Assembly (NCBI GenBank): GCA_022842935.1
Contig: JALHOP010000008.1
Span: 186,001 to 250,000, forward strand
DNA: 64,000 nt
Direction of reading: 5' to 3'
Source of the DNA: Myxococcota bacterium
GTDB taxonomy: Bacteria > Myxococcota > XYA12-FULL-58-9 > JALHOP01
Shown: piece after piece, positions 1-37,465 of the stretch
Position numbering within the stretch: the first letter of the stretch is position 1
Layout: every line of letters begins with the position of its first letter
The notes under the pieces: model-generated
Database searches by the model: none
Told to the model about the DNA's origin: nothing
The model's input: only the letters and a program-made list of their open reading frames with translations
Program-made: the position numbers and the translations under genes

Positions 1-681
1 GTTGGGGCTCCGCTGGAGAGCCGCGTCAGCGTTGCGCAACATAGTGTCGAGGCCAATGAGGTCCATGATGGCGAATGGCCCCTGCTCCATGCCGGTCGCC
101 GTGGTCCAGGCGTGGTCGATGCTCGCGACCGAGGCCACCTCGTCGAGCGCGAGCTCTTGCGCGGCGGTCAGCACAGCGATCAACATCGCGTTGAAGACAT
201 ACTCGCGGTGCTCGCGCGCATGCACCATCGGCTCGTGTCCGAGCTTGCGCGTTAGCTCCGCGATAGCGTCTATCGCGCCGGGGGAGGTTTCGGCGTGCCC
301 CATGACGTCGACGAGACGGTTGCGATCGACTGGCGGATGGAAATGCCAAGCGAGGAAGCGCTCGGGCCGCTCCACCGCCTCGGCGATCTCCGACGGCAAC
401 AACGTCGAGGTGTTACTCGTAAGCAGAGCGTCGGCGCGAACCACACGCGAAAGAGCCGACCATAGTCGCCTCTTCGCGGCGAGGTCTTCGATGATGGACT
501 CGCTGACGACATCAGCATCGAGCGCTGCCTCGAGGCTCGCGACCGTAAGAAAACGGTCGGCAACGCGTGCGAGCGCCCGCGCATCGCTATCGTAGAGCAC
601 CACCGCGCACCCCGCCTTCACGCAGAGGGCGGCAATTTGCGTTCCCATCGTCCCAGCGCCGACGATGAAGATGCGGGTCAT
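1..681 (-). CDS. 3-hydroxyacyl-CoA dehydrogenase, N-terminal part (3' end outside window)
   Basis: Partial gene reading off the left edge; 227 codons are visible. The protein starts MTRIFIVGAGTMG, the Rossmann NAD-binding glycine motif of the 3-hydroxyacyl-CoA dehydrogenase family, which oxidises 3-hydroxyacyl-CoA in beta-oxidation or butyrate-type pathways. Further family signs are a SNTSTLLPSEIA segment, then HFHPPVDRNRLVDV. These correspond to the conserved Ser-Asn and His-Phe-x-x-Pro regions of the NAD domain. The C-terminal domain is only partly present. The start ATG overlaps the stop of the upstream CheY-like gene by four bases (ATGA), so it is probably translated with that operon. Substrate chain length cannot be told. 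Confidence 0.88.
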   Translation of the reverse strand, partial: MTRIFIVGAGTMGTQIAALCVKAGCAVVLYDSDARALARVADRFLTVASLEAALDADVVSESIIEDLAAKRRLWSALSRVVRADALLTSNTSTLLPSEIAEAVERPERFLAWHFHPPVDRNRLVDVMGHAETSPGAIDAIAELTRKLGHEPMVHAREHREYVFNAMLIAVLTAAQELALDEVASVASIDHAWTTATGMEQGPFAIMDLIGLDTMLRNADAALQRSPN

Positions 682-1055
682 ATTCCGAGCAACATCTTGG
701 TTGTGTTGCAAACGTGCGCTGCTTGTACGGGCTTCGAGATGTACGCATTGGCGCCAAGTTGCATGGCGCGCTGCCGGTCACTCTCGGCGCCCTCGGTGGT
801 GATCACCACGATGCGCAGATCCTGATACTTGGCGTCACCGCGCAACGTACTGACCAGCTTGAACCCGTCCATGACCGGCATGTTGATGTCGGTGATTACG
901 AGGTCATAGTGGTCGCGCGCGAGCTTCTTGAGGGCATCGACGCCGTCGTCGGCCTCGTACACCTCGAGCGCCCTTAGCCTCTTCAAGGCGAAGACGATGA
1001 GGTGGCGCATGGTCGGAGAGTCTTCGACGACCAGTGCTTTCTTGTTCTCGGACAT
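678..1055 (-). CDS. Stand-alone CheY-like response regulator (tandem copy 1)
   Basis: A 125-residue single receiver domain with no output domain. The acidic pair is in VVEDSP, the phospho-acceptor is D56 in VITDINMP, the switch Thr is at about 86-87 and the conserved Lys is K108 in ISKP, so it should be phosphorylatable. It is a close paralogue of the product of 1183-1557, sharing long identical blocks such as ADDGVDALKKL and RQRA-LGANAY. It lies near a CheA gene, the plausible phosphodonor, but 2.5 kb beyond that operon's end and beyond a plus-strand gene. The output partner is unknown. Confidence 0.93.
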   Translation of the reverse strand: MSENKKALVVEDSPTMRHLIVFALKRLRALEVYEADDGVDALKKLARDHYDLVITDINMPVMDGFKLVSTLRGDAKYQDLRIVVITTEGAESDRQRAMQLGANAYISKPVQAAHVCNTTKMLLGI

Positions 1056-1182: not shown

Positions 1183-1557
1183 TTAGAGCTTGAGGAGCTG
1201 TTTCACCGTATTGATGACGTGTGGCGCCTGGATGGGCTTGGTGATGTAGGCGTTCGCCCCCAAGGCAAGGGCGCGCTGGCGATCTTCTTGGGCGCCCTCG
1301 GTGGTGATGATGATGATCGGGATCTCTTTGTGAGTCTCGTCCTTGCGCACGAGGCTAACGAGCTTGAGGCCGTCCATGATCGGCATGTTGATGTCGGTGA
1401 TGAGGATGTCGAACTTGCTACTCTGAAGCTTCTTGAGAGCATCCACCCCGTCGTCTGCCTCGATCACCTTAAGCGCGGGAAGACGCTTGAGCGCGAAAAC
1501 GATGAGCTGACGCATGGTCGGCGAGTCTTCGACGACCAGCGCGGTGTACTCAGCCAT
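1183..1557 (-). CDS. Stand-alone CheY-like response regulator (tandem copy 2)
   Basis: A 124-residue single receiver domain with all key residues: acidic pair near residues 10-11, D55 in LITDINMP, Thr in IITTEG and K107 in ITKP. It reads as the duplicate of the downstream gene at 678-1055, from which it is separated by 127 bases. The two differ mainly in the alpha3-alpha4 surface and the last helix, where partner specificity normally lies. It follows the GAF/coiled-coil gene (1608-2414) in the same direction, so the three may form one transcript. Confidence 0.93.
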   Translation of the reverse strand: MAEYTALVVEDSPTMRQLIVFALKRLPALKVIEADDGVDALKKLQSSKFDILITDINMPIMDGLKLVSLVRKDETHKEIPIIIITTEGAQEDRQRALALGANAYITKPIQAPHVINTVKQLLKL

Positions 1558-1607: not shown

Positions 1608-2414
1608 CTACTCCGATGTGGACGACGAGGTGACAAGGTCGATGAACCCCTGAATCGTGGTGAGCTTGCGCTTCGAATCCGTGTAGAGCTTTGCCGCGAA
1701 AATCGCGGTGGCCGCGTGCCCGGCGAGCAGCGTGAACAGCTCGTGATCAACACTAGCAAGGCGCTTCTTCTGCCGCAAAAATTTATAGATCGACAGAACC
1801 CCGATCGTGAGCTCCTTGATCTTCAGGGGGACGCAAACGACTGGCGAGCTGAGGTCGGCGTCGACGCCTTCGAGCTCGGATACGAAATGCGGCACGCCGG
1901 TTTCGATGACCTCGTGTGCGATAGGTGACACCGGCACCTCCTGGGCGGTGCCCCAATCGAGTCCTTCGGCGACGAGCAGCTTCGGCTCCCAGCCACCGCG
2001 CGGAGTCGACTCGACGGCGGTCACAGTGAAGATCTCGGCGCCGATGAAGTTCAGAGTGACCTCGGTGATGGCGCGCAGCACCTCATCGTAGTCGAGGGTC
2101 GAATGCAGCTGGTAGGTTGCAACGTAGATGTTCAGGAGGTTGTTGTTCTCCTGCTCGATCTCGACGTAGCGGTCCGCAAAGCTCCGGTTGGCTGCCTCGA
2201 CGCCGCTGATGTTTTTCTCGAGCTCCGCGACGCGATAGCGGAGTCGCTCGTTCTCACGCATCAGCTCTTCGGTGAATTCCGCGCCGCGCTTGAAAACCTG
2301 CAAAAACTCCTGGCGAGCGGCGAGCAACTCCTCGATTCGGTCTTCGGGCTCAATCGGCGCTTTGCCTCGCCCGGCAGCGGCCTCAATGGGGCCGTCCTCG
2401 TCGTCTCGTGCCAT
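1608..2414 (-). CDS. Coiled-coil and GAF domain protein
   Basis: 268 residues. After an acidic, disordered start, residues about 25-95 form a heptad-rich coiled coil (ELLAARQEFLQVF, ENERLRYRVAELEKN, EIEQENNNLLN). Residues about 95-260 read as a GAF domain (LDYDEVLRAITEVTLNFIGAEIF, then ESSPVVCVPL-like strands and LLAGHAATAIFAAKLY). No kinase or cyclase output follows, so it is probably a ligand-sensing or scaffold subunit. Its position directly upstream of two CheY-like genes suggests it modulates or reads that signalling. The ligand is unknown. Confidence 0.82.
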   Translation of the reverse strand: MARDDEDGPIEAAAGRGKAPIEPEDRIEELLAARQEFLQVFKRGAEFTEELMRENERLRYRVAELEKNISGVEAANRSFADRYVEIEQENNNLLNIYVATYQLHSTLDYDEVLRAITEVTLNFIGAEIFTVTAVESTPRGGWEPKLLVAEGLDWGTAQEVPVSPIAHEVIETGVPHFVSELEGVDADLSSPVVCVPLKIKELTIGVLSIYKFLRQKKRLASVDHELFTLLAGHAATAIFAAKLYTDSKRKLTTIQGFIDLVTSSSTSE

Positions 2415-2510: not shown

Positions 2511-3683
2511 ATGACCGGCACCGCCTCTAGAGTCGTGGAAACAGTTGCCTTACGGCCAACGACGCCGACCGTTGCTCTTGAGCCCCAAGACGAGTTCGAG
2601 CTCACCACGGTGCGGGCGCCGGACTTCGCACGGATGGCATCGGTGCAGCGCACCGTGCGCCCAGGGCTGCCAAATGCCGCGGCTCGTGCGGGTTTGCCTG
2701 ACCTTGGCGGTGTTCGTCCTCTGGCCGTCGACCTCGCCGCCAGCTCGGCTTCGTCTTCCGCGCCCCGCTCACCCTACCGCGAGCGTCCCGAGGTCCGAGC
2801 GTTCATCGAGCGCATGGTGAGCGTCCATGGCCTCGACCGCGCCGAGCTCGAGCGTCTCATCTTCGCCGTCCCACCGCCGCCCCCGTCGAGTGGAGGCGTC
2901 GCCGAGGGTCTTCCGTGGTGGCAATACCGCCAGCGCTTCGTGACGCCAGAGCTGCGTCAGCGCGGCGTCGAGTTCGCGCGAAGGCACGACGCGGCGCTGC
3001 GTGAGATCACGCGCACCTATCGCGTCGATCGCCGCGCCATTCTCGGTATCGCCGGGGTAGAGACCCGCTATGGCGGTTTCACGGGCAACGTTCGTGTCTT
3101 GCCCGCCCTCACGCGTCTGGCGTTCGACGACGAGCGCCGCCAAGACTACTTCCGCTCGGAGCTCGAGGCTCTTCTCTTGCTTGCGCGCGATCATGGACTC
3201 GACCTGCGCACGCTCGAGGGGTCCTACGCTGGGGCCTTGGGCATCCCGCAGTTCATGCCGAGCAACTACCGCAACCTCGCTGTTCGTTATCGCGGCGAGG
3301 GCCGCCCCAACCTATGGGAGCCGCTCGACGCGGTCGCAAGCATCGCCAACTATTTCGTGCGCTATGACCCCACACGTGCATGGCAATACGGCGAACCCGT
3401 GGTTGCCGCAGCTCGCGTCCGCGGTAGCGTGCCCGATGCCCTCCTGAACACCGTGACGAGCCTGGACCGCTTACGGCAGAGCGGCGTCGAGATCACCGGC
3501 GACACCGGTAACGCCACGACAGGCCGCTTGATCAAGATGCAGCGGCGCGATGGTAGCTTCGAATATTGGGTGGGTCTGCCGAACTTCGAGGCCATCCGCT
3601 CGTACAACCCGAGCAACAACTACGCTTTAGCGGTCGCTCAGCTTGGCGACGAAGTCTTGCGTGGCGTGAACCTGCGGCCTTAG
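2511..3683 (+). CDS. MltB-family lytic murein transglycosylase (N-terminus probably frameshifted)
   Basis: The conserved part, residues about 95-385, matches soluble/membrane lytic transglycosylase B, which cleaves the MurNAc-GlcNAc bond of peptidoglycan to form 1,6-anhydroMurNAc. The catalytic Glu lies in GVETRYGGF, and GALGIPQFMPSNYR is the family signature. The in-frame N-terminus is Pro/Ala-rich and has no signal peptide, which is odd for a periplasmic enzyme. In the +1 frame, an ATG at 2674 encodes MPRLVRVCLTLAVFVLW, a good signal peptide, and GC-rich third positions shift from that frame to this one at about 2715-2735. A one-base loss there, real or in the assembly, would explain it. 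If so, the true start is 2674. Confidence 0.85.
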   Translation: MTGTASRVVETVALRPTTPTVALEPQDEFELTTVRAPDFARMASVQRTVRPGLPNAAARAGLPDLGGVRPLAVDLAASSASSSAPRSPYRERPEVRAFIERMVSVHGLDRAELERLIFAVPPPPPSSGGVAEGLPWWQYRQRFVTPELRQRGVEFARRHDAALREITRTYRVDRRAILGIAGVETRYGGFTGNVRVLPALTRLAFDDERRQDYFRSELEALLLLARDHGLDLRTLEGSYAGALGIPQFMPSNYRNLAVRYRGEGRPNLWEPLDAVASIANYFVRYDPTRAWQYGEPVVAAARVRGSVPDALLNTVTSLDRLRQSGVEITGDTGNATTGRLIKMQRRDGSFEYWVGLPNFEAIRSYNPSNNYALAVAQLGDEVLRGVNLRP

Positions 3684-3697
3684 GAGCCGACTCTTGG

Positions 3698-4780
3698 TCA
3701 GGGCACGGGTGGCGACGCGAACTTGGCGACGCGCTCGATGATCTGCCCGAGGGCCAAGATCTCGTCGACGCAGCCAGTCTGAATCGCCTCCTTGGGCATA
3801 CCAAAGACGATCGAGCTCTCCTGCGATTCGGCGATGGTGCGACCGCCCGCCTGGCGTACGATACGGACACCGGCCGCGCCGTCTGCCCCCATGCCCGTGA
3901 GGACGACGGCGAGCATGCTCATCTCGAAGCTCATCGCAGCGCTCTCGAACAGCCGATCGATCGAGGGCACGTAGCGGTCAGTCTCACGCACGTCCTGCAG
4001 CTTGATGAAGTGCGCATCGCCGGAGCGCGTTAGCTCCATGTGTTTGCCACCGGGTGCGATGTAGACGCAGCCCCCGAGGATCTCCATGCCCTCCTCTGCT
4101 TCGCGGATGTCGAGACTCGTCATGCGGTTGAGCCGTTCCGCGAAAGCCCGTGTGAACTTCGCGGGCATGTGCTGCGCAACCAGAAAGGCGCACTGCGGAG
4201 AGGTTCCCATGGCTTTGAAGAGCGATTCGAGCGCCGGCGGACCTCCGGTCGAGGCGCCGACGCAGACAAGACGCGTCGCGGGCTGAGCCGCGCGGGGCGC
4301 TTGCCACTCGGTGGCACCGCCGCGTTGCTCGCGCGGCTCGGCCTTGGGCACGTTCATGTTGACACGCTTGGTGAAGTGCACCGGCTCCAAGCTGTGCACC
4401 GTGAGGGCCTTGGCAATGATCTCGTTGCGCAGCGATGCGATGTCGGGTGCGATGTGATGGGAGGGCTTCGCAATGAAGTCGAGGGCACCCAGCTCGAGGG
4501 CCTGAAAAACTTCCTGCTTTCGGCTGTGCGAGCTGATCACAATGACAGGCGTCGGCATCTTGGACATGACGATGCGTAGGAAGGTGAACCCGTCCATGCG
4601 TGGCATCTCGATGTCGAGGGTGACGAGGTCGGGCTTGAGCTGGGCGACGAGCTTGAGTCCTTCTTCACCGTCGTATGCCTTACCAACCACCTCGATTTCG
4701 GGATGACCGTTCAGAATCTCGGCAATCGTCTGGCGGTTGTAAGCGGAGTCATCAACCACCAGGACCCGCAGCTTCTTCAT
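3698..4780 (-). CDS. cheB: CheB: receptor glutamate methylesterase/deamidase
   Basis: 360 residues: an N-terminal receiver domain (acidic pair DDS at 10-12, D56 in VTLDIEMPRMDG) and a C-terminal methylesterase domain. The catalytic triad is visible as Ser in GASTGGPPAL, His in AQHMP and Asp in TGMGADGAAG. It removes methyl groups from chemoreceptor glutamates and sets adaptation with the CheR encoded just upstream. I chose the ATG at 4780 rather than the upstream extension because homology begins at MKKLRVLVVDD and a G-rich ribosome site precedes it. It is the last gene of the chemosensory operon. Confidence 0.97.
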   Translation of the reverse strand: MKKLRVLVVDDSAYNRQTIAEILNGHPEIEVVGKAYDGEEGLKLVAQLKPDLVTLDIEMPRMDGFTFLRIVMSKMPTPVIVISSHSRKQEVFQALELGALDFIAKPSHHIAPDIASLRNEIIAKALTVHSLEPVHFTKRVNMNVPKAEPREQRGGATEWQAPRAAQPATRLVCVGASTGGPPALESLFKAMGTSPQCAFLVAQHMPAKFTRAFAERLNRMTSLDIREAEEGMEILGGCVYIAPGGKHMELTRSGDAHFIKLQDVRETDRYVPSIDRLFESAAMSFEMSMLAVVLTGMGADGAAGVRIVRQAGGRTIAESQESSIVFGMPKEAIQTGCVDEILALGQIIERVAKFASPPVP

Positions 4781-4803
4781 GGCCCCCCCGTTGTGCCACA
4801 CGC

Positions 4804-5652
4804 TTAGCGTGGCCGCCGGTAAACGATGTCGTGGGTAAGGGGTACGAGCTCGAATTTCGTCGAAGCGTTGATCAACGATTCAGAGTGGCCGAGCAGCAAG
4901 AAGCCGCCGGGTCGCAGCTTCTTATGGAACATGTCGAGCAGGGCGGCGCGCGCCTCGTTAGCGAAGTAGATGATCACGTTCCGACAGAAGATGACGTCGA
5001 CGTTGCTCATGATCGCCATCGCCGCCTCGTCCATCAGATTGAGGTGACCAAAGTTGACGCGATTGCGAATGTCCTCGTTGAGCTTGAACATTCGTCCGTC
5101 GCGCGTGAAGTGCTTGTCGATCCAGTGCGGCTCGGTCTGACGAAAGGAGGACTCCCGGTAGAGCCCGGACCGCGCGGTCTTCAGGACTTTGCGCGAGATA
5201 TCGTTGCCAAAGATCTCCATTGGCAGACCCCGCGTGAGCGGCAAGTCGTGGGTCAACATGGCGAGCGAATACGGCTCTTCGCCGGTCGAGCAACCCGCCG
5301 ACCAGATACGTATGCGGTCGCCTGGCTTCTTGTGCTTCACGACAGCCGGCAAGATCTCGTCCGTGAAAGCGCGCAGCTGGTACGCCTCGCGAAAGAAATA
5401 CGTTTCGTTGGTTGTGACACGCTCGACGATCTCGTCGAACTCCTTGGCCCGATCCGACCCGTACTTCAGCAGGCGGTAGTAGTCGCGAAAGCTCGTGAGG
5501 TTGTGGACGGGTAGACGGGGCTGAAGCCGGCGCTCGATCAAGTACTTGAACGAGTCGGCAAAATAGATGCCGCAGTACTCGGTGATGAGATCGCGCAGGA
5601 GCCGAAACTCCTCGTCGGTCATGGCGACCGCTCTGCCCGTGCCCCAGGTCAC
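4804..5652 (-). CDS. cheR: CheR: SAM-dependent receptor methyltransferase
   Basis: 282 residues. An N-terminal CheR helical domain (TDEEFRLLRDLITEYCGIYF) is followed by the methyltransferase domain with the SAM-binding loop GCSTGEEPYSLA and the FCRNVIIYF segment typical of CheR. It methylates glutamates in chemoreceptors. Its start overlaps the stop of the HEAT-repeat gene by four bases (ATGA). An internal ATG at 5622 (MTDEEF) is where family homology starts, so the first ten residues may not be translated. No receptor gene is in the window, so its substrate is encoded elsewhere. Confidence 0.96.
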   Translation of the reverse strand: MTWGTGRAVAMTDEEFRLLRDLITEYCGIYFADSFKYLIERRLQPRLPVHNLTSFRDYYRLLKYGSDRAKEFDEIVERVTTNETYFFREAYQLRAFTDEILPAVVKHKKPGDRIRIWSAGCSTGEEPYSLAMLTHDLPLTRGLPMEIFGNDISRKVLKTARSGLYRESSFRQTEPHWIDKHFTRDGRMFKLNEDIRNRVNFGHLNLMDEAAMAIMSNVDVIFCRNVIIYFANEARAALLDMFHKKLRPGGFLLLGHSESLINASTKFELVPLTHDIVYRRPR

Positions 5653-7610
5653 GTGCGCCCCCCCGCTCGCGCGAGTCGCTCGAGCTCGTCGCGGACCAAA
5701 GGCTCGGTCTCATCACGAAGCCGCTCAGACAACACGTCGAGAGGCAGCGCGAGAGCACGATTGACCAGCGACTCGGCGGCGGCGCGGCGAACGCTCCAGG
5801 AGTGGTGCGACAACGCGGCGAGCAGGTGTGGCAACGCCGTAGCAGGCGGTAGCCGCAACGTGACGTCGATCGCCTCGCGAACGACTTCGGGGTCGAGGTG
5901 ACGAACACCGACGCGGACCGCGTCCTCGAGCTCCGGAGGCGCGAGCAAGAACAAGCTCTGCAATGCCGCGATGGCTATTGGAGATGCGGTCGCCGCCACT
6001 GCGGTGAGCAACGTTTGCGCCGCTCGCGTGCCACCAACAGCCCCGAGCGCGCGCAGGGCGCTCGCGACGACCCTCTCTGAAGGGTCGGTGCATGCCGCGA
6101 TCAGCGCGGCGACTACCTCATCACCCTGATAGCTCGCGAGGGCGCGCGCAGCGGCAGATCGAACCTCCTCGTGCTCATCCGCCAAAGCAAACACAAGCGT
6201 CTCACGTGGGAAACGGCTTGCGAAAGTCGTAGCAGCGTCGACAGCAGCGCGTCGAATATCGGGATCGGTATGCCGCACCCCCGACACCAACACATCGATA
6301 TCGCGCTCGCGGCCAATGGCCCCCAACACCGTCAGCCACCCAGCGTGCCAGTCGCCCGCGTCGACCAGCTCGCGAACCGACATTGCCACCGCATCTGCGT
6401 GGCGTCGGGCGACCGCGACGAGCGCGAAGATGGCCTGTCGCGCAAGGTCGGGATCGTCGCCGCGCCCGAGCTCGACCAAAGGCTCGACCACCGAAGCATC
6501 ACCGAAGGCGCCGAGGGCACGCATGGCCGCCTCGGCGCTGCGCATCTCGGGACCGTGAGCCAACTCGATGAGGTCGGCGACCGCAACGGGATCGGCGAGG
6601 CTCTCGAGCGTCTCGAGGTAGAGCACACGCGCCTCGACACCTACGCGATCAATCTCGCGTAGCAGATGTTTGGTGGCGGACCGGCCCAGCTCGAGCACCG
6701 CCATCACCGCGGTCTCGACGATGGTACGACAGGCAGCGGCGGCGAGAAATCGGGGTGCGAGGCTCGGCTCGCGCATCGTAGCAAGGAGCACGATGGTGCT
6801 GGCGACCACGGCGTCGCTCTCGGCATCGAGCGATGCGACGAGGCGCTCGTGCGCACGGTGATGCTTGCGTAGCATGGCGCCGAGCTCGTCATGGGCGCTG
6901 GTGTCGTGGACCAAGATGTCGAGTGCGAGGATTGCGGCGAAGCGGTTACCCTCGGGAGCACTGGCGATCGCCTCGAGCAAGATGGGGAGGACTCTCCGAT
7001 CAGCAGTGTTGCCGAGCACGGGATAGAGCGAACGCGCGAGCGAGGGGTTCGCGACGAACCACTGCAGCTCCGCGAAAGGCACGCGCGCACCAGATCTGGA
7101 CAAAGCGTCGAGCACGTAAACCGCGGCCTGCAAATCGTTCTGGGTGCCTTGGAGTCGCTCGCGCAGGCGGCCGATGACCGCTTCGCCCCCGATGCGCCCC
7201 AGGCTCTCCGCGACGGCGGCACGAACGTTGACATCGACGTCATCCTGGACCGCAAAGAGTGCCATCTGGGCCTCCACGGTCCCGATGGCGCCTAACACTT
7301 CGACCATGAACTTGCGCTGATCGGCGTCGGCTTGCGTCAAGTGCTCGATGAGCTGCGCAACGACGGGCGCGCCGAGACGAACGAGCGTCTCGCTCGCCGC
7401 GTTGCGCAGACCAGCATTGTCGCCGTCCGCCAAGGCGGAGATCAGCGCGGGCGCGAGCTCTGGGCTCCGCGCGAAACGCAGCGCTGCCGAGACGGCGGCC
7501 TTGCGCACACGCCAGCTTGCATCGCCCAAGGCGACGACCAGCGCGCCGACGTCATGCGTCGTCGGTGTCATGGCCACCGCCGTCTCGTAGCGTTCGTCTT
7601 CCTGGATCAC
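5649..7610 (-). CDS. HEAT-repeat protein of the chemosensory operon
   Basis: 653 residues composed almost wholly of HEAT/PBS-lyase-like helical repeats of about 31 residues. The recurring pattern is WRVRKAAVSAAL, NAGLRNAASETLVRLG, VNVRAAVAESLGRIGG, DIRRAAVDAATTF, EVRSAAARALASY. There is no signal peptide or transmembrane segment, so it should be a cytoplasmic superhelical scaffold. It is translationally coupled to its neighbours: its start overlaps the degenerate receiver gene and its stop overlaps cheR. That placement suggests a part in assembling or modulating the signalling complex, but no enzymatic role can be claimed. Confidence 0.9.
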   Translation of the reverse strand: MIQEDERYETAVAMTPTTHDVGALVVALGDASWRVRKAAVSAALRFARSPELAPALISALADGDNAGLRNAASETLVRLGAPVVAQLIEHLTQADADQRKFMVEVLGAIGTVEAQMALFAVQDDVDVNVRAAVAESLGRIGGEAVIGRLRERLQGTQNDLQAAVYVLDALSRSGARVPFAELQWFVANPSLARSLYPVLGNTADRRVLPILLEAIASAPEGNRFAAILALDILVHDTSAHDELGAMLRKHHRAHERLVASLDAESDAVVASTIVLLATMREPSLAPRFLAAAACRTIVETAVMAVLELGRSATKHLLREIDRVGVEARVLYLETLESLADPVAVADLIELAHGPEMRSAEAAMRALGAFGDASVVEPLVELGRGDDPDLARQAIFALVAVARRHADAVAMSVRELVDAGDWHAGWLTVLGAIGRERDIDVLVSGVRHTDPDIRRAAVDAATTFASRFPRETLVFALADEHEEVRSAAARALASYQGDEVVAALIAACTDPSERVVASALRALGAVGGTRAAQTLLTAVAATASPIAIAALQSLFLLAPPELEDAVRVGVRHLDPEVVREAIDVTLRLPPATALPHLLAALSHHSWSVRRAAAESLVNRALALPLDVLSERLRDETEPLVRDELERLARAGGRT

Positions 7611-8320
7611 GCGGGGCGCCCTCCCCCCATCTGCATGATCAACACGTCGAATGCTTCGCGTACCGGGTCAGGTACCGGCCAGCGACTCTCGGGGACCATC
7701 GTCGCGAGAACGCGACGTCCCTCGACGAGAGCGCTCTCGAGCGCGGCATCCGAGCCCCCCGTCAATACGGCCTCGAGTCCGAGGTGATTGTACAGGGCGA
7801 TATCGGCGACGATGCTGTGGGCGAGCGCCAGCACCCTCTCGCCGTCCGCGACGCTCACCGCGCTACTTGGTATCGCCACGGGCGCGTCGATACCGGGGTC
7901 CTGATGATGAGCCGGGAAGGCGACCGGTGGGCTGCGCAGACCCAAGAGGTCGTAAAGCTTCGCGGGGAGAAGGTCGACGATGTGGTGCTGCTCGACGTAG
8001 TCGTCGGCCCCGTACAGCTTCGTCGGCTTTCGCTTATAGGCGGTCCGGTTGTAGACCGAAGCGACGAGGATGATCTTCGTAGGTGCGAGCTCTTCCGATG
8101 CGCGGACCTGCTCGATGAGGTCGAACGCGCGCACCGTCGTCAATGCAACGTCCAGAACGGCAGCGGCGGGACGCGTCTGTGCCATCAGGCGCAGTGCGTC
8201 GCCGCTATCGCTCACCGAGACGACGGTGAAGCCGGCGTTAGAAAGCACGCTCGCGATATCGGCGAGCAAGGCATCCGTTTCGTGTGCAACCAAAACGCGT
8301 GGGGCGGCGCTTCCGGTCAA
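7607..8320 (-). CDS. Degenerate receiver-domain protein
   Basis: 237 residues. Residues 7-115 fold like a response-regulator receiver (RVLVAHETDALLADIASVL, D57 in AAVLDVALTT), followed by a mostly helical C-terminal part with no known DNA-binding or enzymatic motif. Two features are abnormal. The first acidic residue of the usual pair is His (HE), and the Lys-Pro after the GADDY segment is missing (YVEQHH). It may still bind phosphate weakly or act as a phosphorylation-independent adaptor. It overlaps cheW upstream and the HEAT gene downstream by four bases each. Confidence 0.82.
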   Translation of the reverse strand: MTGSAAPRVLVAHETDALLADIASVLSNAGFTVVSVSDSGDALRLMAQTRPAAAVLDVALTTVRAFDLIEQVRASEELAPTKIILVASVYNRTAYKRKPTKLYGADDYVEQHHIVDLLPAKLYDLLGLRSPPVAFPAHHQDPGIDAPVAIPSSAVSVADGERVLALAHSIVADIALYNHLGLEAVLTGGSDAALESALVEGRRVLATMVPESRWPVPDPVREAFDVLIMQMGGGRPA

Positions 8321-8823
8321 GTGAGCCCCTCGGCAAGCTCGGCGGCTGAGGGCGCTCCGATGGCCTCGTCGGATCCGACGATATTCTTGACGTTCAGCAG
8401 GATGAGCGTGCGCCCGCGGTACTGGACGACGCCCAGGAAATAAGGGGCGCGGTCCGCACCCAAGAGGCCGGGCGCGGCGCGGATCTCGCCCCGCGGTACG
8501 CGTACGACCTCGGTCATGCCGTCGACGACGAGGCCGAGAACGCGGCCGTCGATCATCAAGATGATGATCTTCCGTAAGCGATGCTCCTCTGCCGTGACAT
8601 CGAAGCGTCGGCGCAAATCGACGATCGGGATAACCTGCCCGCGCAACGAGATGACACCTTCGACGTATTTTGGTCCCTTGCGCACGCGCGTGATGGGTAG
8701 CGGCCGGAGGATCTCACGCACTCGCATGATGTCGACGACATACTCCTCCGACCCGACACGGAAGGCCGCCAGCTGCACGATGTCGCTGTCGCGACCGCGC
8801 GTCTCGGGCGAAAGACGCGTCAC
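8317..8823 (-). CDS. cheW: CheW coupling protein (second copy)
   Basis: 168 residues with a single CheW-like SH3-type domain at about 16-155. It includes FRVGSEEYVVDIMRVREIL, the ISLRGQVIPIVDLRRRF core, and VDGMTEVVRVP. CheW links the CheA kinase to chemoreceptor tips in the array. This copy is basic at the core (RRRF, RLRK) and lacks the N-terminal extension of its upstream neighbour, so the two may occupy different array positions. It overlaps the preceding cheW stop by four bases. Confidence 0.95.
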   Translation of the reverse strand: MTRLSPETRGRDSDIVQLAAFRVGSEEYVVDIMRVREILRPLPITRVRKGPKYVEGVISLRGQVIPIVDLRRRFDVTAEEHRLRKIIILMIDGRVLGLVVDGMTEVVRVPRGEIRAAPGLLGADRAPYFLGVVQYRGRTLILLNVKNIVGSDEAIGAPSAAELAEGLT

Positions 8824-9416
8824 TTCGGATGCTCCAACAGAGCCATGATGGCGGACAGGTCGAGGACAATGAGCAAGCGATCGTCGACGCGGCCGACGCC
8901 CGAGAGCAGGTCACCCACCTCTGTCTGCATGGTCCGCGGCACGGGCTCGATGCTCTCGCGCTCGATGCGAACCACGCTGGTAACGCGGTCGACCACCAGG
9001 CCTATTGGATCACCGTCGCCGCGCAAGACGAGGACACGCGTCGTCCGCGATACCGGACGCGTACCGAGCCGCAACATCCGTGAGAGCTCGACGATGGGAA
9101 CGATGGTGCCCCGCAGCGAGATGATTCCGATGATGCTCTCGGACGTACGCGGCACCTGCGTCACCGTCGGCAGCTTGATGAGTTCCTGAATCTCGAGGAT
9201 ATCAATGGCGTACTCTTCGTCACCAACCCAGAAGACCAGCAGCTCCGCCATCTCGCGGCCGAGACGCTGGCCTCCAGTGAACGGGTCACCGCCATAGCTT
9301 GTGACCACGTGTTCTTGCTCGGAGGGGCCGACAAAGAAGTCGGCAAGCGGGTCGTTAGCGATCAGCTCGTGCCAGGTGTCGTCGGTTTCAGGCGACTTGT
9401 CGCGGCCGTGGCTCAT
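8820..9416 (-). CDS. cheW: CheW coupling protein with N-terminal extension
   Basis: 198 residues. About 55 acidic, probably disordered residues precede a CheW domain (LLVFWVGDEEYAIDILEIQEL, IGIISLRGTIVPIVELSRML, LVVDRVTSVVRI). It is the receptor-kinase adaptor of the array. The extension is not part of the standard E. coli-sized CheW and may bind one of the extra proteins of this operon. Its start overlaps the cheA stop (ATGA), which keeps stoichiometry tight through translational coupling. Confidence 0.94.
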   Translation of the reverse strand: MSHGRDKSPETDDTWHELIANDPLADFFVGPSEQEHVVTSYGGDPFTGGQRLGREMAELLVFWVGDEEYAIDILEIQELIKLPTVTQVPRTSESIIGIISLRGTIVPIVELSRMLRLGTRPVSRTTRVLVLRGDGDPIGLVVDRVTSVVRIERESIEPVPRTMQTEVGDLLSGVGRVDDRLLIVLDLSAIMALLEHPK

Positions 9417-11506
9417 GGCGCGCTCCGTCGTGGACTGCCGCTCCGCGCTTCGGCCGACATCTCGCCGAGGAGCTCGACCATGTCGATGACGAGGATGGTT
9501 TGGCTATTGCCGAGCTCTGCGGCCCCCGCGATGCCCGGCACGTTGCGCAACCAGCGCCCCAGCGATTTGATGACGATATCCTGCTGAGCAACCAGGTCGT
9601 CAACCACGAGCGCCATCCGATTCTGGCCGGCGCCAGCGACGACGCCGTACACCGTCTTGGGACGAGCTTCGTCAGGGAGCATGAAGATGCGACGCAAGTC
9701 GAGCAGGGGCACGGTGGCGCCGCGCACCGAGATGACCTCGCGCCGCTCGATGGTCTTCACGTCGGCCGCAGTGAGCGCCAGAGTTTCTTGGACGTTGTTC
9801 AGCGGTATGGCGTAGGTGCGTCCAGCGACGGCCACGATGAGCGCGGGGATGATGGCGAGCGTGATGGGGAGCGTCACCACCACTTTCGTGCCGAGCCCTT
9901 CTTGCGAATCGACGTCGATGACACCCGAGAGCTGGGCGATGTTGGTCTTGACGACGTCCATGCCGACACCGCGACCGCTGTATTCGCTGACCTCGGTCCG
10001 CGTCGAGAATCCCGGCAAGAACAACAGGTTGTAGATCTCGCGGCGCGTGAGCTCGCTCGCTCGCTCGGGCGTCAAGAGTCCTCGCTCGACCGCGAGAGCG
10101 AGCGTGCGTTTGACGTCAATGCCGCGTCCGTCATCGGAGACCTCAACGACGACGTGGTTGCCCTGAGCTGCGGCGGACAGCTTGACGACCCCTTCGCCCG
10201 GCTTCCCGGCGGCAACACGCTCCTCGGGCGGCTCGATGCCGTGATCGAGGGCGTTGCGGATGAGGTGCATGAGCGGGTCGGCAAGATCCTCGACGATGAG
10301 CTTGTCGAGCTCGGTGTTTTCGCCGGTCGTCTCGATGCGCACCTCGCGCTTGAGCTCGCGGCCGATCTTGCGGCCGATACGCTGCATCCGCTCGAACAGG
10401 TTCTCGAGCGGGACCATACGCACTTCCATGATGCCGGCTTGCAGCTCGGCGAGGCGTCGCTCGAAATTGCGCCCTTCCTTGTATAGATCGACGGCGAGGC
10501 CTGAAAAGCCGTGCTCGCGCTTCATGGCGTCGGTGATGCGCAAGAAGGCCGCGCGGGTCAGGCCCAGCTCACCGACCAGGTTCATGAGGCGGTCCAGCCT
10601 GCGGATATCCACGCGGACGGTCCGCGAGACGCTGCGTACGCTAGGCGCCTCTTCGGACCCTTCATTTTCGGGGACGATGATGTGGTCGAGGAGGTCGCGC
10701 GCCGTACCCTGCCCAGACGGGGCTGGGTTTGGGCGCGCTTTGGGTCGGCGTCGAGGAATCGGTACGACCTCGACACGCTCATCGCCGATGGCCTTCGCGA
10801 GGTCGTCGCTGGTGGCATCGGAGCCGACGATGATGTCGAACGAAATCGCTCCGGGGTCGGCCGCCTTGCTGCTCGGCAACTTGGTGATGACCTCGCCGAG
10901 CTTCTTCACGGTAGCGTCGATCTCGGCGAGACCCACATCGAAGTTCGTCAGATCGAACGACGTACGCAGCATGTAGAGCTGCCGGCCTTTCGAGATGTTC
11001 TCGCGAAGGCGGTGCTCTTCGTATTCGGTGAGTACGCTGAGGACGTCTTCCCCCAGCTCGAAGAGATCGAGTGGCTCGGCGACCTTGAGGTTGCTGTCGC
11101 CACGCGCCACCTTTGTGAGGCGCGCGCCCATGTCTTCAATGGCGGCCACCGGCACGTCTTCGCCAGCAGCGGCGGCGGCAATCAGCGAGCCGGCGCGCTC
11201 GACCGCAGCGAACAAAGCGTCGAGAGCGGCCTTGTCGAACTGCACTCGCCCGAGACGCATGGCGTCGAGAACACTCTCGAGGTCGTGGGCAAGACGCGCC
11301 ATGGCGTCGAGGCCGAACATGCCGGCCAGGCCCTTGAGCGAGTGCGCACTTCGGAAAAGGTTGTTCACCCGGTCGGGGTCGACTTCTTCGCGGCCCTCAC
11401 GGGTCTCTTGTTCGGCCCCGATGAGATCGCGACCGAGCGCGTCGACGATCTCCTGCGCCTCGGCGATGAACTCGGGGCTGACGCCCCCGGAACCAGAGCT
11501 GGTCAT
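9413..11506 (-). CDS. cheA: CheA chemotaxis histidine kinase
   Basis: 697 residues. The domains in order are: an Hpt domain with phospho-accepting H55 in RSAHSLKG; a linker/P2-like region about 145-255; the dimerisation domain from about 295 (RLDRLMNLVGELGLTR); an HATPase domain with N-box NALDHG at about 418-423, DDGRGID and the GRGVGMDVV box; and a C-terminal CheW-like regulatory domain. It autophosphorylates and passes phosphate to CheB and the several receivers encoded around it. There is no C-terminal receiver, unlike hybrid CheA-CheY proteins such as FrzE. It lies six bases downstream of a CheY-like gene. Confidence 0.97.
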   Translation of the reverse strand: MTSSGSGGVSPEFIAEAQEIVDALGRDLIGAEQETREGREEVDPDRVNNLFRSAHSLKGLAGMFGLDAMARLAHDLESVLDAMRLGRVQFDKAALDALFAAVERAGSLIAAAAAGEDVPVAAIEDMGARLTKVARGDSNLKVAEPLDLFELGEDVLSVLTEYEEHRLRENISKGRQLYMLRTSFDLTNFDVGLAEIDATVKKLGEVITKLPSSKAADPGAISFDIIVGSDATSDDLAKAIGDERVEVVPIPRRRPKARPNPAPSGQGTARDLLDHIIVPENEGSEEAPSVRSVSRTVRVDIRRLDRLMNLVGELGLTRAAFLRITDAMKREHGFSGLAVDLYKEGRNFERRLAELQAGIMEVRMVPLENLFERMQRIGRKIGRELKREVRIETTGENTELDKLIVEDLADPLMHLIRNALDHGIEPPEERVAAGKPGEGVVKLSAAAQGNHVVVEVSDDGRGIDVKRTLALAVERGLLTPERASELTRREIYNLLFLPGFSTRTEVSEYSGRGVGMDVVKTNIAQLSGVIDVDSQEGLGTKVVVTLPITLAIIPALIVAVAGRTYAIPLNNVQETLALTAADVKTIERREVISVRGATVPLLDLRRIFMLPDEARPKTVYGVVAGAGQNRMALVVDDLVAQQDIVIKSLGRWLRNVPGIAGAAELGNSQTILVIDMVELLGEMSAEARSGSPRRSAP

Positions 11507-11512
11507 CGGGGG

Positions 11513-11884
11513 TCAAAAGCCTTTCGGGAGTAGTCCACGCACTGCGTCGAGCAAGCCCTCGGCATCGAACGGTTTCACCAGATAGGCATTGGCGCCAAGC
11601 GCGAGTGCCTTCTCCTTGTCGCGATCACTGCTCTCTGACGTGACCACCAGCACCGGAACCTTGGCGAGTGCCGGACTTCGCCGGACAAAGGCCAAGAGCT
11701 CGAGCCCGTTGATGTCGGGCATGTTGATGTCCGTGACGATGAGATCGACGGCGGAGCGGGGAAGCTGGCGCAAGGCCTCGAAGCCAGTCGACACCTCGAG
11801 TACCTCGCAGCCTGTGATCTGGCCGAGCACGGACGCGATGAGCCCACGCATGGCCGCGGAGTCTTCGACGACCATCACCTTCAT
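11513..11884 (-). CDS. Stand-alone CheY-like response regulator of the cheA operon
   Basis: 123 residues, one receiver domain. The acidic pair is in VVEDSAAMR, D52 in IVTDINMP is the phospho-acceptor, Thr/Ser lies in VVTSES and K104 in LVKPF is conserved. It sits immediately upstream of cheA with a six-base gap, so it is the best candidate for the cognate CheY of this system. It is more divergent from the tandem receivers at 678-1557 than those are from each other. Confidence 0.94.
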   Translation of the reverse strand: MKVMVVEDSAAMRGLIASVLGQITGCEVLEVSTGFEALRQLPRSAVDLIVTDINMPDINGLELLAFVRRSPALAKVPVLVVTSESSDRDKEKALALGANAYLVKPFDAEGLLDAVRGLLPKGF

Positions 11885-11911
11885 CGGAACCCCATGCTTT
11901 CAAGCACGCGC

Positions 11912-13939
11912 TTAACGATTTTTCTTCGACTCTTCGAGACGACGCTCCAGCAAGGCACGGTCCATGGCGAGGCCGGCCTGCTGCAAGAATATCTCAAGAC
12001 TGTCGGTGGCACCCAAAGGTTTGCCACTCGGGTTATCGCCAAAGAGGATGGCCGCCACACGGTCGCCAGAAACGATCGGTATGGCGACTGCCGGATGGTC
12101 GTGCCAACCTCCTAGGCCTTCGAGCAGTGCGCGGTTGGCACCGGTCGCGGCCAACGGACCGTGGATGGTCGTGCGGTACTGGGCGACCTTCGCGAACACC
12201 GAGTCATGCTCGACGGGGATTTGAATGCGGCGGACCAAGGCGACGAAGCCATCGCTCTGCTCGGCGTTGAGAAAGCCACCAAGGCCGACGAAAGCACGCC
12301 GGGTCGCAAGGAACAGGCCACCGCGCTCGAACACATCGCTCGCGTAGCGAAGGACGAGCAATGTGATGGTGTCACGATTCGCGGGGTCGATGAGCTCGGC
12401 AAGCATGGAGCGCAGGCTCGCAAGGTCGGCGCGGGCGGTGGGCGGCGGAGCCCCAAGGTCGCGCTCGGCCCCATCGAGATGACCCACGTCGACATCGAGC
12501 TCGCCAATCGTGAACGGCGGCGAGGGCGTGCTCTCTGCCGACGGCGTGCTGGCGACTTGCGCAGCGCCTATCGCATCGGCCGCTTGGACGCGCGCGTCGA
12601 ACCCGCGGTCCACGAACCCAGGCGCGGGCGGTAGCACCGCGTCGCGCGTCGCGATGTCAGCCGCATCCGCGAGGCTCCGCAGGAACGCTCGCATCGCGGG
12701 GCTCGACGTCTTGCCACTCGCATCGGCGACATCGCGCTTCTTCGGCTTACCGAGAAAGGTGTGGACGCCAAGCGCCTTGGCGCGGACCACCGCCTCTTCG
12801 TTCTTGTAGTCACTGAACGCGATGACCGGGCACGCGAGGTCGCGCTGGCGCAAATGCGCGATGACCTCGACACCACCCAAGATGCCGCGGCCGTCGGCGC
12901 GGGGCATGATGAGATCAACCGCGAGCATGTGGGGCTCGCCAGCGAGTCGCCCCAAAAGCTCGTTCGCCTCGCCGACGCGATGCGCGGTGTGAACTTGCGC
13001 GAAGTGTAAGGCCAGTTCGCCGGCGATGAGGGTCGCGGTCAACACATCGTCATCGACGACGACGAGGTGCCACTGCTTGAGCGCTGCTTCGTGCGCCGGA
13101 CTGGTCGCGAACACCGAGTCAGGGGGGATGACGAGACCGGGCACCGCGGCGCTGCGCGCGTTCTGCTCGCGTTGCGGTGACGGCGTGATGCGCGCGGGAG
13201 GCGGCACCAAGGCTTCCTTTTCCTCGTACGCGAAGGGAGGCGAGCCTTCGGGCTCCGGCGGCTTTCGGCGGCCCTGGGGGAACGGGATGATGTTCTGGTC
13301 GGGCGCCGACTCCGTGAGCGCATCGTCGAGGTCGAGATCCGCGGCACGCAGCGCCGTCGAGAGCTCGGCGGTCGCCTGACTCGAGCTCTCACGCGGGGGA
13401 CGCGCGCGTGCAAGGAAGCTCTCGAGGGGGTCTTGCCGTTGACGCTCGTCGCGTATCCGCGCGCCCTCGATCGCGAGGTACTGAGGGTTCAAGCCGCGGG
13501 CAAGCACGACCCGCGCCGCGGTCAAGGAGAATCCGTTCCACAGTGGCGGATCCTGGGCGAGCACGAACGAGAAGGTTCCTTCTTCCCACTCGAACATCTC
13601 GTAGACGATACGCGTGAGGAGCGACTCGAGGGCGCGGTCGAGCGCGTCCGCGTCCAGATTGAACTGTGCGAAAAGGTCGGCGCCCGCGACGCCACGGGCC
13701 TGCTGGGCGAGCATTTCTTGATAAAGGAGCGGCGTCACCACGCCCATGTGCAGGAGCACGTCGCCCACCGTCTGCGGCGGCCGGCTGCGTTCGGCGGCCA
13801 CGACCTTGCCCGAAACGAATACGATCTCGCCCGACTCGGCGGGCGTGTCGAGCTTCAAACTGCCCGAACGACGGCTCAGCGAGACGATCTGAAAGATGTC
13901 TCCGAGGCCAAGATCAGCGAGATTTCCAACCAGACTCAT
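11912..13939 (-). CDS. PATAN (DUF4388) - receiver - GAF-like protein
   Basis: 675 residues from the ATG at 13939, chosen because PATAN/DUF4388 domains begin with the pattern MSLVGNLADLGLGDIFQIV. Residues about 1-160 are the PATAN domain, a protein-interaction module known from cyanobacterial PatA and other delta-proteobacterial proteins. After a long Pro/Ala-rich linker comes a receiver at about 305-420 (VVDDDVLTATLIAG, Asp in AVDLIMPRADG, Lys in LGKPKK). The last about 190 residues look GAF-like and end in a charged helix. It heads the operon containing cheA and is a likely output or polarity scaffold. An upstream extension to 14026 is open but non-homologous. Confidence 0.85.
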   Translation of the reverse strand: MSLVGNLADLGLGDIFQIVSLSRRSGSLKLDTPAESGEIVFVSGKVVAAERSRPPQTVGDVLLHMGVVTPLLYQEMLAQQARGVAGADLFAQFNLDADALDRALESLLTRIVYEMFEWEEGTFSFVLAQDPPLWNGFSLTAARVVLARGLNPQYLAIEGARIRDERQRQDPLESFLARARPPRESSSQATAELSTALRAADLDLDDALTESAPDQNIIPFPQGRRKPPEPEGSPPFAYEEKEALVPPPARITPSPQREQNARSAAVPGLVIPPDSVFATSPAHEAALKQWHLVVVDDDVLTATLIAGELALHFAQVHTAHRVGEANELLGRLAGEPHMLAVDLIMPRADGRGILGGVEVIAHLRQRDLACPVIAFSDYKNEEAVVRAKALGVHTFLGKPKKRDVADASGKTSSPAMRAFLRSLADAADIATRDAVLPPAPGFVDRGFDARVQAADAIGAAQVASTPSAESTPSPPFTIGELDVDVGHLDGAERDLGAPPPTARADLASLRSMLAELIDPANRDTITLLVLRYASDVFERGGLFLATRRAFVGLGGFLNAEQSDGFVALVRRIQIPVEHDSVFAKVAQYRTTIHGPLAATGANRALLEGLGGWHDHPAVAIPIVSGDRVAAILFGDNPSGKPLGATDSLEIFLQQAGLAMDRALLERRLEESKKNR

Positions 13940-14031
13940 GGGACAGACCGACTCTGACCATACCTCGCGAACGCCGGCAATCGGCCACTCGCTGTCACCC
14001 GCGCCTTTCGGCCGGTTTCGTGCCAAACACG

Positions 14032-14535
14032 CTAGCCTACCGCGTCTTTCGCGGCGAACAGCGATGCCATCTCGTCCGTTGGTTGCTCGACGAAGATGAC
14101 GCGAAGCTGGTCGGCAACGGCGCTGGCCGCCGCTTTCACGAAGGTCAGCTCCACGCCCTTCTGCTTGCGGGAGGCAGGTGCGGCGATCGCCAGATCGGTC
14201 ACTCCTGCATCACGCATGACACGCGCCGCCTTACGCAGCTCGTTCCTGAAGATCCCTTCGTCACATTCCTGAGCAACGCCCAGTCCAAACACGAAGATCC
14301 GCCGAAACGCGGCGCGCATGCGCGTCGGCAGGAGCATCGATTCGCCACGCCCCGCCTTGAAGGCAGAGCTTTCGAGGGTGCGCGACACCGCGCCGCAGGC
14401 TCGCCAGTCGACGAACCCGGCGACTCCCGCGAGAGGCCTCTGATCACTGAACAAGAACAGGCCAATGGAATCACCGCCCCAAGCATCGAGGCCATCGAGG
14501 GTGCCAGCAGCGACCCTACCAGGCCTCTTGCTCAC
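14032..14535 (-). CDS. Orphan leucyl-aminopeptidase N-terminal-domain (M17_N-like) protein
   Basis: 167 residues resembling only the N-terminal macro-like domain of M17 leucyl aminopeptidases. The hexapeptide region reads GRGESMLLPT, followed by FVFGLG and the Val/Ala-rich helix RKAARVMRDAGVTDLAIAAP. The metal-binding catalytic domain of M17 enzymes is absent, so it is not a peptidase. The domain may bind a nucleotide or act in oligomerisation, but the function is unknown. The start is a GTG overlapping the nusB stop (GTGA), making it the last gene of the riboflavin-nusB run. Confidence 0.75.
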   Translation of the reverse strand: MSKRPGRVAAGTLDGLDAWGGDSIGLFLFSDQRPLAGVAGFVDWRACGAVSRTLESSAFKAGRGESMLLPTRMRAAFRRIFVFGLGVAQECDEGIFRNELRKAARVMRDAGVTDLAIAAPASRKQKGVELTFVKAAASAVADQLRVIFVEQPTDEMASLFAAKDAVG

Positions 14536-14954
14536 GGCTTGTCCTTGGCGAGTTGGTCGAGGATGCCGTTGATGAACGATGCCGACTCTTGCCCGCTAAA
14601 GCGTTTGGCGATCTCGATGGCTTCGTTGATGCTCGCGGCGCGCGGAATGTCGGGGCAACGCGTGATCTCGTAGGCCGCGAGGCGCAAGAGACTGCGGTCG
14701 ACCTTGGCCATGCGGTCAACCTTCCAATTGTGCGAGACGTTGCCGAGGATGGCGTCCACCGCATCGATGTCCGCAGCGACGCCACGCACCAGACGCTCGG
14801 CAAACTCGCGGTCCTCGGGGCTTACTGGTTCGAAGCTCGCCCAGTAGTCGCGGATGGCCGTGTCGAGGGCTGTCTGGTCTTGCGTGCCCAAGATGCGGGC
14901 AACATCGAGCTGATAGATGAGCTGCAGTGCGCTTTCGCGGGCACGACGTCGCAT
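14532..14954 (-). CDS. nusB: NusB transcription antitermination factor
   Basis: 140 residues, all-helical, with the NusB signatures RRRARESALQLIYQLD at the start, then NWKVDRMAKVDRSLLRLAAYEI and INEAIEIAKRFSGQESASFING. With NusE it binds boxA in rRNA leader transcripts and supports antitermination. It follows ribH with a one-base overlap, an arrangement seen in many bacteria (ribH-nusB). Confidence 0.97.
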   Translation of the reverse strand: MRRRARESALQLIYQLDVARILGTQDQTALDTAIRDYWASFEPVSPEDREFAERLVRGVAADIDAVDAILGNVSHNWKVDRMAKVDRSLLRLAAYEITRCPDIPRAASINEAIEIAKRFSGQESASFINGILDQLAKDKP

Positions 14955-15430
14955 TATTCGGACTTTGGCATCGTGTTGAGCAAGCGGGCCATCTCGATGG
15001 CGACGCCGGCGGCCTCGAAGCCCTTGTTACCAGCCTTCGTACCGGCGCGCTCGAGAGCTTGTTCGATGGTGTCGGTCGTCAACACGCCAAAGACGACAGG
15101 GACGCCGGTGTCGAGGGCTGCCCGGCTGATGCCGGCGGCCGCCTGGTTGCACACGATGTCGTAGTGCGAGGTGGCGCCGCGGATCACAGTTCCCAGGCAA
15201 ATGACCGCGTCGTACTTCTTCGACTCGGCGAGACGCTTGGCCGCCAGAGGAAGCTCGAAGGCGCCAGGCACCCAGGCGACGTCGATGTGGGCGTCGTTGA
15301 CCCCATGACGGCCAAGACCATCGCGTGCGCCGGCGAGCAGACGTTCCGTCACCAGCTCATTCCAGCGGGTCACGACGATTGCGAAGCGCAGGTCGCGCCC
15401 GTCGAGCATGCCTACGAATGTCTTCCCCAT
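14954..15430 (-). CDS. ribH: 6,7-dimethyl-8-ribityllumazine synthase
   Basis: 158 residues. It condenses 5-amino-6-ribitylamino-uracil with dihydroxybutanone phosphate. The motifs are [18 protein letters not shown], the VPGAFELP substrate loop, [12 protein letters not shown] with the catalytic His, and [13 protein letters not shown]. The ATG at 15430 (MGKTFVG) is preferred on homology; an in-frame ATG at 15448 also exists. A large imperfect inverted repeat ends six bases upstream of the chosen start and could control its translation (separate entry). Confidence 0.96.
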
Positions 15431-27388: not shown

Positions 27389-27394
27389 GAACAC

Positions 27395-28970: not shown

Positions 28971-28975
28971 CTCAA

Positions 28976-37446: not shown

Positions 37447-37465
37447 CGTCTGTTACCTCTTCCCA

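Follow-up and report, generated by a model that had tools for sequence, protein, structure and literature searches.

What does a chemosensory operon without a receptor gene respond to, what does it act on, and to which known system does it belong? The locus that raises these questions lies in a 64,000-nucleotide stretch of DNA from a Myxococcota bacterium (assembly GCA_022842935.1, contig JALHOP010000008.1, positions 186,001 to 250,000), the whole of which we call the window. A first-pass annotation, made from the letters alone, had read nine same-strand genes in the order PATAN-receiver-GAF, receiver, CheA, CheW, CheW, degenerate receiver, HEAT protein, CheR and CheB, and all nine are present on the minus strand in this order and with the same ends, in agreement with Pfam (Table 1). 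Judged by its gene content, gene order and neighbours, the operon is the orthologue of Myxococcus xanthus Che8 (MXAN_4751-4759), in an early-branching form that comes from a deep lineage of the phylum and has extra parts. The system itself is already known; its gene content, the tie between the HEAT protein and CheR, the homology to RomX and the change in the receptor tip are results of this analysis.

The identity was read through G053 (labels in G, C, L and f denote genomes, contigs, loci and families), a genome treated as M. xanthus-like on the basis of its protein lengths. Its che8-like locus, which adjoins nusB and rib genes, encodes a CheA of 862, a CheW8b of 188, a CheR of 290 and a CheY8a of 126 residues, and a second locus encodes a CheB of 348, a CheR of 273, a CheW of 148 and a CheY of 125 residues; the two loci equal the M. 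xanthus Che8 and Che7 protein lengths given by Moine et al. 2014 (PMC3945109; published work is cited throughout from the partial texts available). As the gene order and lengths in G053 fit the M. xanthus che8 table, we assign the window operon to Che8. In 19 of 20 genomes tested, one CheA gave a best match of at least 401 bits and the next CheA at most 279 bits, and this single Che8-type CheA is accompanied by syntenic CheW, CheW, CheR, CheB and CheY, with the HEAT protein placed between CheW and CheR. Identity between the window's CheA8 and its orthologues is 42-69%, and H55 is invariant across 27 aligned rows. When the phylum was surveyed (195 genomes, CheA8 sought with a single-protein search), a Che8-type CheA was found in 128 genomes, a count that includes G002, an outlier at 36% identity, and it usually adjoins ribBA-ribH-nusB; these rib/nusB surroundings are shared by the window operon, upstream of which lie a 167-residue protein, nusB, ribH, ribBA and ribE, and by many orthologues. 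The first-pass annotation had proposed a search for the gene order across genomes, and the order and its neighbourhood do recur throughout the phylum, including Sorangium cellulosum, Nannocystis sp. and metagenome-assembled genomes of Myxococcales, so that the arrangement is not due to chance. Synteny of Che8 with Anaeromyxobacter and Geobacter was already noted in 2008 (PMC2330069), and the available text of one study describes the function of Che8 as not identified (PMC9040617).

The nine genes are tightly packed, with four-base overlaps at five of eight junctions (CheA/CheW, CheW/CheW, CheW/pseudo-receiver, pseudo-receiver/HEAT and HEAT/CheR), which bears out the earlier description of most junctions as overlapping; the remaining gaps are 2 bp (CheR/CheB), 6 bp (CheY/CheA) and 27 bp (PATAN-receiver/CheY). 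The first-pass annotation ended the system at CheB. Orthologous loci have a GAF protein and a single CheY straight after CheB, and by this synteny the Che8 unit of the window extends further, to a GAF protein and two CheYs that are split from CheB by a lytic transglycosylase gene. Among 66 loci scanned, this transglycosylase gene has no match other than in the window's own stretch (L106). The two CheYs (678-1557) are very similar and stand in tandem; most orthologous loci show just one. At the other end of the operon, the DUF4388 domain, which we take to be the PATAN domain, and the receiver of the first gene are well supported, but the match of its C-terminal region to GAF is weak. The PATAN-type regulator is restricted to some lineages and occurs in a minority of orthologous loci. 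As noted earlier, the operon contains no CheZ, CheC or CheD. It has no flagellar genes either.

The HEAT protein and the pseudo-receiver had both been proposed as core parts of the complex; the HEAT protein proves to be one and the pseudo-receiver does not. By a survey profile (A2) built from 28 orthologues and by inspection of the loci that it left over, the HEAT protein was detected in 118 of the 128 CheA8 genomes, with four undecidable at contig ends and six without it. It lies within 6.2 kb of CheA8 on the same strand in 99 genomes and on another contig in 11; the other 18 comprise four with HEAT and CheR fused (G027, G043, G054, G094), four with part of a HEAT protein at the locus (G137, G140, G166, G173), four where the contig ends before HEAT (G079, G089, G111, G172) and the six without. 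Five of these six (G040, G083, G133, G167, G168) also have neither CheR nor CheB and keep CheA, CheW and CheY8a; the sixth, G002, retains CheA and CheB alone. Among loci whose span is complete, none has HEAT without CheR. HEAT and CheR form a single frame in five loci (L094 and L095 of family f21, L096 of f19, L243 of f27 and L254 of f17), in all of which the HEAT match falls short of its usual 650 residues, and the pseudo-receiver and HEAT form a single frame of 926 residues in L077. Because it keeps its place beside CheR throughout the phylum, is in some loci fused to CheR and disappears together with it, the HEAT protein is, on this comparative evidence, a core Che8 subunit tied to CheR. 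A further fusion, suspected from Pfam in Sorangium cellulosum (L118), was dropped, as the two matches lie in different frames that abut with a 4-bp overlap. In the same locus (13066-15403), HEAT matches occur in two frames between CheW and CheR, suggesting a frameshift or a split gene.

Homology places the HEAT protein with Cpc7 of the paralogous Che7 system, whose HEAT proteins score about 255-281 bits with profile A2 (among the matches listed) and likewise stand directly before CheR (five of five loci). According to a review, Cpc7 interacts with CheY7 (PMC11514114); it also affects development (PMC9040617). The model of the 653-residue window protein is all helical, with a predicted local distance difference test score (pLDDT) of 91.6, and Pfam finds nothing but repeat families in it; the NCBIfam matches to CpcF/CpcE are far under cut-off. 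Fold searches returned only generic HEAT/armadillo proteins for this model and only generic receivers for the pseudo-receiver, and are therefore little informative. By analogy with FrzF, whose TPR domain limits methylation (PMC3447774), we infer that the HEAT protein may be a platform between receivers and CheR.

The pseudo-receiver is degenerate, as the first-pass annotation had it. Its receiver match is weak in Pfam (30.6 bits against a cut-off of 30.2) and its active site is broken, with H-E in place of the acid pair and Gln in place of the conserved Lys; Asp57 is retained, and all 16 orthologues share both H13 and D57. The AlphaFold model has a receiver fold at residues 5-129, a disordered linker and C-terminal helices. 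Counted as present at 160 bits or more, the protein occurs in 12 of 195 genomes, 11 times at the Che8 locus and once elsewhere (G018), and also in the named records L117, L120, L130 and L135; matches of 69-93 bits, most of which span the receiver only with a few longer (G059, G075), are left out of the count, L127 is the same contig as G016, and weak matches in a 58-genome search are located in frames of other proteins. It is thus not a core part of Che8. A zinc ribbon, or what remains of one, is found at the N-terminus of several copies. In family f8, its slot is occupied by a methyl-accepting chemotaxis protein (MCP) of about 846-878 residues where complete, which is found whole or in part in eight loci (L083, L084, L086, L087, L110, L111, L112, L206). 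In G018, whose operon has an MCP in the slot, a gene for a pseudo-receiver with the C-terminal domain lies outside the operon (L082:8247-8951, contig C17).

What the pseudo-receiver may connect to is indicated by its C-terminal domain. Positions 10-77 of a profile of this domain (A6, 15 rows) match residues 8-75 of RomX (PDB 8zna) at E 4e-16, and the domain of L120 matches RomX on its own (1.8e-13); on this profile evidence the domain is homologous to RomX. RomR/RomX is a guanine nucleotide exchange factor (GEF) and recruiter of MglA (PMC7332107, PMC6785124). No other open reading frame in the 240 sequences (2.93 Mb) examined has a RomX-like domain. As a separate observation, an MglA homologue (PDB MglA, E 2e-49) lies at L202:3073-3771 (G018:C240), near another che cluster (MCP, CheW, CheY, CheA) in an f8 genome.

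The first-pass annotation had found no chemoreceptor, which holds for the operon but not for the genome. Eight MCPs are encoded there, three in other che clusters and five as orphans, and the proposed search for receptors with matching tips yielded two of these orphans. One of them (L009; G000:C3:391600-393420) has best matches of 61-67% identity in five genomes of the same order and 51% in two Myxococcus-like genomes (G053 and G049); its counterpart in G053 is an open frame of 724 residues, compared with 723 for McpJ. Best match per genome, tree and tip agree in making it the McpJ orthologue. In the tree, McpJ-type and in-operon receptors cluster, with Mcp7 outside and receptors from other clusters still more distant; some branches, including that of the second orphan (L011), are long. 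In Tsr, an ionic lock between dimers is formed by E385 and R388 (PMC8144572). All 36 receptors of the group, and all of 20 additional McpJ orthologues, carry I/L and Q/A/G at the equivalent positions in place of Glu and Arg (56 of 56, leaving out the duplicates L234 and L238); among them are both orphans of the window's genome and all eight in-operon receptors. The other receptors examined keep both Glu and Arg (16 of 16). L009 has two membrane helices about 18 residues apart, and those of L011 are about 160 residues apart.

Across the survey, McpJ-type receptors were found in 132 genomes: 123 have both the receptor and CheA8, five CheA8 only, nine the receptor only and 58 neither. Counted by family, which removes relatedness in part, the figures are 17, one, zero and 13. 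Four of the nine receptor-only genomes carry the Che8 HEAT protein, so that in these the locus is present and its CheA was missed or cut. Since two orphans share the unusual tip and a receptor of the same clade fills the pseudo-receiver slot in sister operons, Che8 is probably not receptor-less in function but probably served by these unusual receptors encoded elsewhere in the genome.

On the output side, conservation is far higher in the CheY8a orthologue than in any other part of the system: its median identity over 19 loci is 77%, and the values for the other CheY, CheA and HEAT (the last over 16 loci) are 51%, 48% and 32.5%. This points to a constrained partner. PATAN-type regulators, PixG and its relatives, bind PilB1 and PilC in cyanobacteria (PMC12288463), and some MglA genes have PATAN genes nearby (PMC4316618). 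The guess of the first-pass annotation that the output may be polarity or gliding receives concrete but indirect support from the RomX-like domain.

Taken as a whole, our best explanation, to which we give an even chance of being right, is a Che8 system with a private receptor array, a HEAT platform and a RomX-like link to a GTPase. The receptor pairing, the feedback through HEAT and the GTPase coupling would work as follows. The McpJ orthologue and the second orphan, on contig C6, would form their own array with the two CheWs and CheA8, the changed trimer-contact tip keeping it separate from other receptors. CheA8 would phosphorylate the CheYs and the receivers of CheB and of the PATAN protein, with the CheY8a-type regulator as the main conserved output. 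On the HEAT solenoid, which would play the part of FrzF's TPR domain, phospho-CheY (as for CheY7 and Cpc7), the pseudo-receiver or both could meet CheR, and output or localisation would in this way feed back on receptor methylation. Where a lineage has kept the pseudo-receiver, its RomX-like domain may recruit the complex to an MglA-type GTPase; the PATAN regulator may act on the type IV pilus or polarity machinery. That Che8 should be a phylum-wide switch from chemosensing to GTPase polarity, with a private array of rewired tip, a HEAT protein joining CheR to receivers and, in deep lineages, a pseudo-receiver-RomX exchange platform for an MglA-type GTPase, we consider unlikely.

A number of observations weigh against this picture. 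Many of the HEAT-bearing loci were fetched through HEAT or pseudo-receiver matches and form a partly biased sample, the HEAT-CheR and pseudo-receiver-HEAT fusions stem from draft genomes, where one indel could mimic the fusion in L077, and two loci (L124, L128) have CheR without HEAT. The C-terminal domain of the window's own pseudo-receiver, searched alone, gives no RomX match, so that its link to RomX runs through its orthologues. A motif scan of the loci found nothing MglA-like in the window or in the stretches of its genome examined, with MglA, MglB and RomR not sought genome-wide. In M. xanthus, deletion of McpJ left motility and fruiting unimpaired according to the available text of Moine et al. 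(PMC3945109), which limits the strength of any motility role there. PilB is found in the window's genome (G000:C9) and in 193 of 195 genomes; presence of the type IV pilus failed as a discriminating test, and PilB, being nearly universal, says nothing by its presence here.

The HEAT protein might also be an effector and no part of adaptation, an output of phospho-CheY as Cpc7 is for CheY7, its tie to CheR being one of gene order only. The homology to Cpc7 and the properties of Cpc7 described above speak for this, yet HEAT adjoins CheR in both Che7 and Che8, is fused to it in five loci and is absent along with CheR and CheB in five more, whereas an effector would be expected to remain with CheA and CheY once CheR and CheB are lost; we hold such a role to be doubtful. 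For the receptors, Moine et al. place McpJ and Mcp7 in subpolar clusters and link them by phylogeny and localisation (PMC3945109), a further point against our pairing, and McpJ-type receptors could accordingly serve Che7 and not Che8. Against this, the tip of Mcp7 is canonical and the changed tip of McpJ is common to the receptors inside Che8 operons, McpJ occurs in the window's genome, where the sole HEAT protein of the family at E 1e-40 is that of Che8, and the McpJ-type receptor co-occurs with CheA8, making service to Che7 very unlikely.

An output that is mainly transcriptional, in which CheA8 phosphorylates orphan regulators such as MXAN_4468 acting with HrcA on groESL, could explain why MXAN_4468 pulled down CheA8 and why groESL levels were alike in the cheA8 and MXAN_4468 deletions (PMC9040617). 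However, the operon has CheYs of its own, one of them its most conserved component, and its RomX-like and PATAN domains point away from transcription, so that we find such an output quite unlikely. It could go either way whether the RomX-like domain has a tie to an MglA-type GTPase at all or is a helical docking module of a general kind: some members of the pseudo-receiver family also bear zinc ribbons, but the domain is confined to pseudo-receiver proteins in the sequence examined and its sole solved relative is the GEF partner RomX.

Che8 has so far had neither an assigned function nor a receptor, and the receptor tip, the HEAT-CheR tie and the RomX-type domain offer three direct tests. Should the tip pairing prove true, a receptor can have two of its highly conserved residues exchanged and still be under selection, which is relevant to the separation of receptor arrays in cells that run numerous chemosensory systems. 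Should the RomX link prove true, a chemosensory array would be wired directly to a Ras-like polarity GTPase.

Table 1. Genes of the Che8 unit in the window and the gene that interrupts it
Feature	Position	Strand	Basis
PATAN/DUF4388 - receiver - weak GAF response regulator	11912..13939	-	Pfam PF14332 9e-23, PF00072 7e-11; C-terminal GAF_2 E 0.0084
CheY, by position CheY8b (MXAN_4759) orthologue	11513..11884	-	PF00072 3e-28; acidic pair, Asp, Ser/Thr, Lys intact
CheA8 kinase	9413..11506	-	Hpt, H-kinase_dim, HATPase, CheW domains (Pfam)
CheW (first)	8820..9416	-	PF01584 3e-35
CheW (second)	8317..8823	-	PF01584 6e-34
Pseudo-receiver with C-terminal RomX-like domain (residues about 158-230)	7607..8320	-	Weak receiver (Pfam), RomX profile match, AlphaFold model
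HEAT-repeat alpha-solenoid, 653 residues, Cpc7 homologue	5649..7610	-	HEAT_2 5e-53
CheR methyltransferase	4804..5652	-	PF01739 7e-59
CheB methylesterase with receiver	3698..4801	-	PF01339 2e-61, PF00072 7e-26
Lytic transglycosylase, not part of the system	2511..3683	+	PF13406 1.5e-71
Coiled-coil/GAF protein, directly after CheB in orthologous loci	1608..2414	-	GAF_2 2.5e-7; synteny
CheY, by position CheY8a (MXAN_4751) orthologue	1183..1557	-	Median 77% identity, 19 loci
Second CheY, tandem relative of the CheY8a orthologue	678..1055	-	PF00072 1e-28; alignment

Some observations concern the surroundings of the operon and its relatives. The conserved 167-residue protein between nusB and the operon (window 14032-14535) resembles the N-terminal domain of M17 aminopeptidases (9e-10). 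Further along, at 26243-41342, lies a partial division and cell-wall (dcw) cluster on the same strand, with FtsZ, FtsA, Mur ligases and a penicillin-binding protein transpeptidase. In locus L096, an AAA_22 ATPase (6877-7755, Pfam 5e-23) stands between CheA and CheW, and open reading frames of similar size occur there in L095, L114, L090 and L120.

Compared with known systems, the window operon shares with M. xanthus Che8 the order CheY-CheA-CheW-CheW-HEAT-CheR-CheB-CheY found in the M. xanthus-like genome, the rib/nusB neighbours and the lack of an MCP gene, a lack also noted in Corallococcus (PMC6194562); it differs in adding the PATAN-receiver protein, the receiver-RomX-like protein, the GAF protein and a second CheY, and in having its CheY and GAF genes cut off by the transglycosylase gene. 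With Che7 and Cpc7 it shares the HEAT protein directly before CheR, and the MCP in front of HEAT in Che7 recalls the f8 Che8 operons, but Che7 has one CheW, its own MCP with a canonical tip and a more distant HEAT protein. FrzF and other CheR-TPR proteins likewise attach an alpha-solenoid to CheR (PMC3447774), whereas the solenoid of Che8 is HEAT and not TPR, lies N-terminal to CheR and is mostly a separate subunit. The combination of a receiver with a RomX-type domain is common to RomR/RomX, the GEF of MglA, and to the window, where a single polypeptide contains the two, with the receiver in degenerate form, and is encoded in a chemosensory operon. Finally, the orphan receptor of the window's genome is the orthologue of McpJ (MXAN_5907), at 51% identity in G053 and G049, and is set apart from it by its two closely spaced membrane helices.

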